Positions 29,354 to 30,229 of a stretch of 33,550 nt of DNA are shown here, in pieces. This DNA comes from Thermoplasmata archaeon (GTDB lineage: Archaea; Thermoplasmatota; Thermoplasmata; Lutacidiplasmatales; UBA184): NCBI GenBank assembly GCA_022750375.1, contig JAKIVU010000011.1, forward strand, positions 1 to 33,550, in the 5' to 3' direction. The notes under the pieces were generated by a model. It was not told where the DNA came from, did no database searches, and saw only the letters and a list, made by a program, of their open reading frames with translations. Numbering within the stretch: position 1 is the stretch's first letter; every line of letters starts with the position of its first letter. A program made the translations under genes and the position numbers.

Positions 29354-29667
29354 CGCCGTCCCCTCCCGCCGCTTCCGGCAGTAGCCCGGCCACGCCGATG
29401 CAGGCGACCGTCGGCGTCGAAGTCCCCGCCGTCCAGCGCGTCGTCGAATCGCTCGCCGAGCTCGCGGACGATTCCTCGGTGCCGCGCAACATCCGCCGCG
29501 GAGCCCAGTCGGCGCGCGACGCGCTCTCCAAACCGCGGGTCGCGCTCGACGTTCGGATCGCGAGCGCGGTCTACGTGCTCGACGACCTCGCGAACGACCC
29601 GAACATCCCGACGCACGGCCGCACCGCGATCTGGTCGATCATCTCGAACTTGGAGAGCATCCAGTGA
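29350..29667 (+). CDS. UPF0147 family protein
   Basis: This 105-residue helical protein is of the archaeal UPF0147 family. The conserved stretches 'LADDSSVPRNIRRGAQSARD', 'LDVRIASAVYVLDDLANDPN' and 'RTAIWSIISNLESI' cover most of the family domain (about 90 aa). The first 20 residues are Pro/Ser/Ala-rich and outside the domain; an internal ATG at 29398 is an alternative start, but the ATG at 29350 gives an ATGA overlap with the preceding gene. Function is unknown; wide archaeal conservation suggests a basic cellular role. A short palindrome and the tRNA promoter follow. Confidence 0.9.
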   Translation: MTPSPPAASGSSPATPMQATVGVEVPAVQRVVESLAELADDSSVPRNIRRGAQSARDALSKPRVALDVRIASAVYVLDDLANDPNIPTHGRTAIWSIISNLESIQ

Positions 29668-29695: not shown

Positions 29696-29747
29696 TGCTC
29701 TCGTCGCTCCGGGTCGGAACGGGAATGGGCCCGTAGCTCAGCTAGGT

Positions 29748-29778
29748 TGGTCGCGCGGAGCGCCCGCCGACCCTACAA
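29748..29778 (+). other. Predicted tRNA intron 1 (D-loop, about position 20/21)
   Basis: About 29-31 bases inserted after AGCTAGGT of the D-loop. It folds internally: GGTCG (29749-29753) with CGACC (29768-29772), and GCGG (29755-29758) with CCGC (29764-29767). Boundaries are uncertain by a few bases because no perfect bulge-helix-bulge is seen; TTG/CAA (29747-29749 with 29776-29778) could form a relaxed one. Confidence 0.75.
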
Positions 29779-29817
29779 AGAGCATCTGGCTTTTAACCAG
29801 TTGGTCGGGGGTTCGAA

Positions 29818-29855
29818 CGAGTCGCCCCGCGCGACGCGCGGAGTCGCTCCGAGCG
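29818..29855 (+). other. Predicted tRNA intron 2 (T-loop, about position 59/60)
   Basis: About 38 bases inserted after TTCGAA. It can form a 6-bp hairpin CCGCGC-GAC-GCGCGG (29827-29841), or two smaller hairpins (29821-29835 and 29839-29851). A near repeat GAGTCGC occurs at 29819-29825 and 29841-29847. The boundary may be one base later (TTCGAAC versus TTCGAAT in the spliced T-loop). Confidence 0.75.
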
Positions 29856-29879
29856 TCCCCCCGGGCCCGTGCCGCTCCT

Positions 29880-29890: not shown

Positions 29891-30229
29891 GTGACCCCGA
29901 GTCCTGCCCGCCGAACGAAGAAGCGCGCCGCGAGCGCAGCCCCAGCGAAACCGCTGCGCCCGTTCGTCGCACACCACTTGCTGCCTCGCCATGAGATCCT
30001 GACCGAGGAGGAGACGAAGCAGGTGCTCGAAACGCTCGAGACGGTCGCCGAACGCCTCCCGAAGATCCTGGTCGGGGACCCCGGCCTTCAGACCGACCCG
30101 AAGTTCGTTGCGGGGCGCGACGCCGGAGAGAACTTCACCGGACGTCTCGTCCGCATCCATCGTCCGAGCGCGACGGCCGGTACCGCGGTCGCCTACCGCC
30201 TCATCGTCCCCGCGATCGGGGGGAGCTGA
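29891..30229 (+). CDS. rpoH: DNA-directed RNA polymerase subunit H (Rpb5-like)
   Basis: This 112-residue subunit equals the C-terminal domain of eukaryotic Rpb5. Conserved pieces are '[14 protein letters not shown]', '[14 protein letters not shown]' and '[19 protein letters not shown]'. Archaeal RpoH is usually 75-85 aa; here about 25 basic, Ala/Pro-rich residues precede the domain. The GTG start at 29891 has GGAGG upstream. Placement of rpoH directly before rpoB is the classic archaeal operon order. The gene lies 21 bases after tRNA-Lys and seven bases before rpoB. Confidence 0.95.

Follow-up and report, generated by a model that had tools for sequence, protein, structure and literature searches.

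Two bulge-helix-bulge introns at non-canonical sites in the tRNA-Lys(UUU) gene of a Thermoplasmata archaeon and its relatives

The tRNA-Lys(UUU) locus

The window analysed here, a 33,550-nt stretch of contig JAKIVU010000011.1 (assembly GCA_022750375.1) from a Thermoplasmata archaeon of the order Lutacidiplasmatales, carries a tRNA-Lys(UUU) gene on its forward strand (29727-29869, discriminator G included) that is composed of three exons and two introns, one in the D-loop and one in the T-loop, and has a spliced length of 74 nt (Table 1). A preliminary description of the sequence had arrived at the same coordinates, the same insertions of 31 and 38 nt and the same 74-base product. The anticodon loop CUUUUAA (29790-29796, with the anticodon UUU at 29792-29794) is uninterrupted, as that description also held, and there is no intron at the canonical 37/38 site. 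The window belongs to a metagenome-assembled genome (MAG) of 0.93 Mb that is 69% complete.

Table 1. Exons and introns of the tRNA-Lys(UUU) gene and the genes on either side of it
Feature	Positions	Strand	Description
UPF0147 family protein gene, upstream neighbour	29398-29667	+	Pfam PF03685, 101 bits
Exon 1	29727-29747	+	Acceptor 5' strand, D-stem 5' strand, D-loop through U20; from sequence
Intron 1	29748-29778	+	31 nt at 20/21 in D-loop
Exon 2	29779-29817	+	A21, D-stem 3' strand, anticodon arm, variable loop, T-stem 5' strand, T-loop 54-59
Intron 2	29818-29855	+	38 nt at 59/60 in T-loop
Exon 3	29856-29869	+	U60, T-stem 3' strand, acceptor 3' strand, discriminator G73; CCA not encoded
RNA polymerase subunit H (Rpb5 C-terminal domain family), downstream neighbour	29891-30229	+	Pfam PF01191, 59.6 bits

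Excision of both insertions restores a normal tRNA, as is expected of archaeal introns: the spliced 74-mer is identified as tRNA-Lys(ttt) by ARAGORN. The same program found no tRNA in the raw window and, when introns of up to 3000 nt were allowed, returned chance matches only, elsewhere in the window. An Rfam scan of the window at the gathering threshold found no tRNA, the unspliced gene scoring 19.9 bits, which is under the Rfam tRNA cut-off. The genome also encodes an intronless tRNA-Lys(CUU) (L008); by standard decoding rules, tRNA-Lys(CUU) does not read AAA codons.

Bulge-helix-bulge motifs and their covariation

A bulge-helix-bulge (BHB) motif was taken to consist of two 3-nt bulges with a 4-bp helix between them and the cut sites within the bulges, and the introns here match it, intron 1 being short of one central pair. 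Intron 2 forms a regular 3-4-3 BHB with all four central pairs (U54U55C56G57 with CGAG) and bulges AA|C and CG|U, so that the earlier statement that neither intron has a perfect BHB does not hold. Intron 1 contains an internal helix (GGUCG/CGACC), and CUAC, its 3' part, is the partner of exon positions 16-18. Hairpin folding is predicted for both insertions, in agreement with their previously suggested ability to fold on themselves. RNAfold models of the isolated BHBs shift register by one pair where G or C is repeated, and for this reason the junctions were read from relatives. Of the shuffled sequences, 0.06% for intron 1 and 0.15% for intron 2 reached the BHB score of the window; the comparative evidence for the motifs is far stronger than this statistic.

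That evidence comes from 48 relatives (L033-L080) found by scanning with the UPF0147 neighbour, in which the UPF0147 gene is syntenic upstream of the tRNA and the gene order is the same up to the tRNA. Every one of the 48 has the two introns at the sites seen in the window. The exons average 96% pairwise identity, intron 1 65% and the 38-nt copies of intron 2 57%; intron 1 measures 31 nt in all 49 homologues, and intron 2 ranges from 29 to 38 nt. Exon 1 is near-invariant among the 49 homologues, the exceptions being positions 16, 17 and 17a. The pairing model for intron 1 matches exon positions 16, 17, 17a and 18 with intron positions -3 to -6 and also pairs the two ends of the intron; its BHB pairs are kept at 94%, against 24-48% when the partner is slid by one or two bases. 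The 17a/-5 pair is A-U in 36 sequences and C-G in 11, 17/-4 is U-A, U-G or C-G, and the outermost pair, 16/-3, is kept in just 27 of 47 sequences. For intron 2, where positions 54-57 are matched with intron positions -3 to -6 and the intron helix is added, 93% of pairs are kept among 46 distinct sequences, against 35-58% in slid registers. Changes such as A-U/C-G and U-A/C-G thus show covariation in the BHB pairs of both introns.

Relatives that lack one intron or the other act as natural controls, giving exactly the predicted exon junctions and so fixing the splice sites. Intron 1 is precisely absent in L155 and L156, whose D-loop reads CCAGGTAGAGC, and intron 2 is absent in L126 and L163, whose T-loop is uninterrupted. 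Uninterrupted genes elsewhere in the phylum carry TAGCTCAGCTAGGTAGAGCATCTGGCTTTTAACCAG, which agrees without a difference with the spliced gene of the window over 36 nt spanning the D-loop junction. Within the order, both introns occur in 93 of the 95 loci examined, the other two being L126, which lacks intron 2, and a locus that ends at a contig edge; L124 and L125, whose T-loop was scored as intronless by script, proved to be interrupted on inspection. The script's length counts for intron 2 in these loci were set aside, short chance stem matches making them unreliable. The preliminary proposal of two archaeal-type introns at non-canonical D-loop and T-loop sites in a euryarchaeal (Thermoplasmata) genome is borne out.

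Proposed splicing pathway

It is close to certain, in our judgement, that this gene provides the tRNA-Lys(UUU) of the genome and that its two BHB introns, at 20/21 and 59/60, are removed by the splicing endonuclease EndA and the exons ligated. In the precursor, each intron would fold on itself and pair with the preceding exon, at positions 16-18 for intron 1 and 54-57 for intron 2, to give in each case two diagonal bulges around a short helix. A dimeric EndA of the alpha'2 type, which possesses no specificity loop, would then cleave every bulge after its second nucleotide, and an archaeal tRNA ligase would join the three exons into a standard 74-nt tRNA. The tRNA elbow is formed by G18, U55 and C56; as the first of these bases is paired to intron 1 in the precursor and the other two to intron 2, this D-loop/T-loop contact should be unable to form before both introns have been removed. 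Cleavage of BHBs by EndA followed by ligation is the established archaeal pathway (PMC6379350), and it agrees with all the present data.

Some points weigh against this interpretation. In the register backed by relatives, intron 1 of the window has three of the four central pairs, with C16 opposite C; many relatives, e.g. L192, have all four. An alternative register of intron 1, shifted by one step, offers four pairs (UAGG/CCUA) and would move the cut by 1-2 nt. No PF01974 match, the signature of EndA, was found in the window's own MAG, most simply because this MAG is incomplete. Finally, cleavage and ligation themselves, together with the order in which the introns are removed, are inferred from the sequences and not observed.

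The splicing endonuclease of the lineage

Among the genomes of the genus, 34 of 41 contain a PF01974 match, including all 12 of high quality, as a rule with two repeats per open reading frame (ORF), and the same rule applies to 20 genomes of the class. A second EndA gene was found neither in the genus genomes nor in the 20 class genomes scanned for PF01974. The relatives thus encode an alpha'2-type enzyme, with a degenerate and a catalytic tRNA_int_endo repeat in one ORF and no separate subunit gene, and the nearest solved structures include Archaeoglobus fulgidus EndA (1r0v and 2gjw), also of the alpha'2 type. The conserved FRxY, HxxYL and VRK residues are present in the EndA of intron carriers; judging by position in A. 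fulgidus EndA, we take the Tyr, His and Lys of these respective motifs to be the active-site residues. The window's own organism would be expected to use the same type of EndA.

The preliminary description had argued that the introns imply an endonuclease of broad specificity, and had proposed that its architecture be sought elsewhere in the genome. In the relatives, this architecture is a single two-domain protein of alpha'2 type without a CSL or ASL specificity loop, and as the intron motifs are regular or nearly so, a loop-bearing enzyme of broad specificity is not implied. The diagnostic insertion, a loop that contains a conserved Lys, precedes the LSL strand in the catalytic unit; PDB entry 3p1y served as reference. 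Of 40 aligned EndA proteins, 38 cover the site, all intron carriers among them, and no such insertion is present in any of the 38. At the CSL position, A. fulgidus reads FYGSEKGDLVTLS and the relatives' EndA AYGSQLGDRLELS, which align without an insertion; the relatives correspond at this position to the wild-type, loop-less A. fulgidus chain. The 3p1y chain is A. fulgidus-like with a longer sequence at the CSL position; an A. fulgidus EndA with a grafted crenarchaeal loop has been described (PMC6379350), and 3p1y is taken to be such a construct.

Removal of the introns by a broad-specificity EndA, through a CSL/ASL-like loop or some other feature, is unlikely but deserves consideration, as the lineage is rich in non-canonical introns, some with relaxed 3-bp motifs (see below), and elsewhere relaxed motifs and non-canonical introns accompany CSL/ASL enzymes (PMC6379350, PMC12397907). 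Against it stand the absence of an insertion at the CSL position from the EndA of every intron carrier examined and the failure to find a second EndA gene in the scanned relatives.

Other interrupted tRNAs

The lineage contains many similarly interrupted tRNAs, as the preliminary description had suggested might be found, with 59/60 introns in about a dozen tRNAs other than Lys. These were sought by a scan constrained on T-stem and acceptor pairing, which replaced a blind BHB search combined with ARAGORN on other weak tRNA matches, an approach that had yielded many false solutions. In the window's genome, Arg(UCU), Ala(GGC), Ser(GGA) and Arg(UCG) carry such introns (L017, L018, L019 and L021 in G000), whilst 12 tRNAs besides Lys do so in G029 (L227-L229, L231-L237, L239 and L240) and 11 in G018 (L245-L250 and L252-L256). 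The introns are 23-35 nt in length, and the same isotypes carry them in two genomes. In 16 of the 27, A57 lies opposite G, leaving a central helix of 3 bp, and in nine G57 is present and four pairs form. These 3-bp helices indicate that, even without the known loops, a degree of relaxation is tolerated in this lineage. The earlier suggestion of relaxed recognition thus stands for them and for intron 1, which is one pair short, and fails for intron 2, which is regular.

Two further kinds of insertion were observed. The tRNA-Arg(GCG) genes L230 (G029) and L251 (G018) have an apparent D-loop intron of about 31-34 nt, and the anticodon loop of the tRNA-Trp(CCA) genes L022 (G000) and L238 (G029) contains a long insertion. 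In other archaea, the anticodon-loop introns of tRNA-Trp hold a C/D box guide RNA (PMC4090602).

Distribution and ancestry of the intron pair

Lutacidiplasmatales share one clade with Methanomassiliicoccales, Gimiplasmatales, SG8-5 and Lunaplasmatales (PMC9287336). Both introns are present in the three families of the order and in the class families f8, f9, f15, f18, f19, f23, f26, f27, f29 and f30. Family f11, of which one genome was seen, has the D-loop intron only and f6 the T-loop intron only; the sampled genomes of f7, f12, f16, f24 and f28 have neither. A Methanomassiliicoccus sp. UBA386 MAG (L192) carries both introns with four of four central pairs at each site, and other Methanomassiliicoccales also carry both. 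MAGs of Methanomethylophilaceae (L196) and Candidatus Methanoplasma (L195) carry neither. One further tRNA-Lys(UUU), L262 (G208), has an added insertion beside the anticodon, at the 37/38 site, besides its D-loop and T-loop introns, and is probably a case of three introns in one tRNA.

On an EndA tree, in which the deep branches are poorly resolved and long branches are present, four changes account for the distribution of the D-loop intron and six for that of the T-loop intron. The intronless f7 rows fall within a supported group of carriers, and loss is therefore the simplest reading for this family. Judged from these sequences, the intron pair is inherited rather than new and common to about 12 family-level groups of Thermoplasmata; the introns have been lost at least in Methanomethylophilaceae. 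Repeated independent insertion at hot spots could also produce shared sites, given that 20/21 and 59/60 are known sites in other archaea (PMC4090602) and that 59/60 introns occur in other tRNAs of the genus. We consider this improbable, in view of the near-constant length of intron 1 (31 nt in 91 of the 95 order loci), the shared BHB sequence, the few changes on the EndA tree and the nesting of f7 among carriers.

Alternatives to splicing

Could the insertions instead persist in the mature RNA, enlarging its D- and T-loops? In favour of this, both fold into hairpins. Such retention is nonetheless very improbable, as one or other insertion is exactly absent from L155, L156, L126 and L163, the BHB geometry falls at exactly these points, the spliced D-arm shares 36 nt with uninterrupted genes and the elbow bases would remain sequestered.

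At most one UUU anticodon arm was found per genome of the genus. The exception is G100, which has three different tRNA-Lys(UUU) copies (L164, L165 and L166), two of which closely match loci of other species (L040 and L075); this resemblance makes a mixed bin probable. An intact second tRNA-Lys(UUU), which the preliminary description had named as part of the evidence that would undo its proposal, was sought in the relatives' genomes and not found: in the last scan, a copy with an intact D-arm occurred in none of 27 genomes of the order, and in 97 of 205 high-quality genomes of the phylum. That the gene is a degenerating pseudogene whose functional counterpart lies elsewhere, as its unspliced score under the tRNA cut-off and the incomplete MAG might suggest, can practically be dismissed, given exons conserved at 96% against diverging introns, compensating changes in the BHB helices, both insertions at 93 of the 95 loci of the order and the failure to find an intact copy among near-complete relatives.

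Relation to known systems

Both 20/21 and 59/60 are on the published list of archaeal intron sites, and multi-intron tRNAs are known (PMC4090602, PMC4033280). According to a 2014 review, the strictness of the alpha4 and alpha2 enzymes explains why the tRNA introns of euryarchaea are single and canonical (PMC4090602), and another review gives Korarchaeum as the sole alpha2 archaeon with non-canonical introns (PMC4033280). The latter source nonetheless tabulates Methanothermobacter thermautotrophicus and Methanopyrus kandleri with multiple introns.

Thermoproteales, according to those findings of Sugahara et al. (2008) that are relayed in PMC4033280 and PMC4090602, likewise have several short non-canonical BHB introns per gene and many affected tRNAs per genome; the present case differs from what is relayed there in its Thermoplasmata host, its loop-less alpha'2 enzyme and an old and conserved Lys intron pair. 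Korarchaeum likewise combines a dimeric EndA from a single gene with non-canonical tRNA introns; its EndA is, however, reported to have a specificity loop (PMC4033280), which is absent in the relatives here. M. kandleri and M. thermautotrophicus also have euryarchaeal tRNA genes with more than one intron (PMC4033280) but represent different lineages, and the EndA of M. kandleri is an (alpha beta)2 enzyme without the loop (PMC6379350). Freyarchaeia and Atabeyarchaeia similarly have multiple introns, often at non-canonical positions, but are Asgard archaea in which far more tRNAs are affected, 92-95% having introns (PMC11291895). A search of the literature outside subscription papers, GtRNAdb and supplementary tables found no specific report of a two-intron tRNA-Lys or of tRNA introns in Methanomassiliicoccales. 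The kind of intron is thus known; its Thermoplasmata lineage and enzyme context have apparently not been reported before.

Implications

We lean, with some reserve, towards a model in which Lutacidiplasmatales, Methanomassiliicoccales and their neighbours remove many non-canonical introns by means of a loop-less alpha'2 EndA, breaking the published alpha4/alpha'2 rule, and in which splicing of tRNA-Lys(UUU) precedes tertiary folding. These introns would comprise the D-loop and T-loop pair of Lys(UUU) and, in Lutacidiplasmatales, 59/60 introns in about 12 other tRNAs, most with the relaxed 3-bp helix. A large Thermoplasmata clade would then not fit the rule, published for alpha4 and alpha2 enzymes, of single canonical introns. 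One practical consequence concerns gene finding: an essential tRNA gene present in a single copy is overlooked or broken up by simple scans of these genomes. Whether EndA is limited by where an intron sits or by the geometry of its motif could be tested cleanly in this clade: introns at non-canonical sites would need no special loop as long as their BHB is regular, and the 59/60 introns with 3-bp helices would show how relaxed a motif can be for an enzyme that lacks the loop. Methanogens of the Methanomassiliicoccus group could show the splicing directly.
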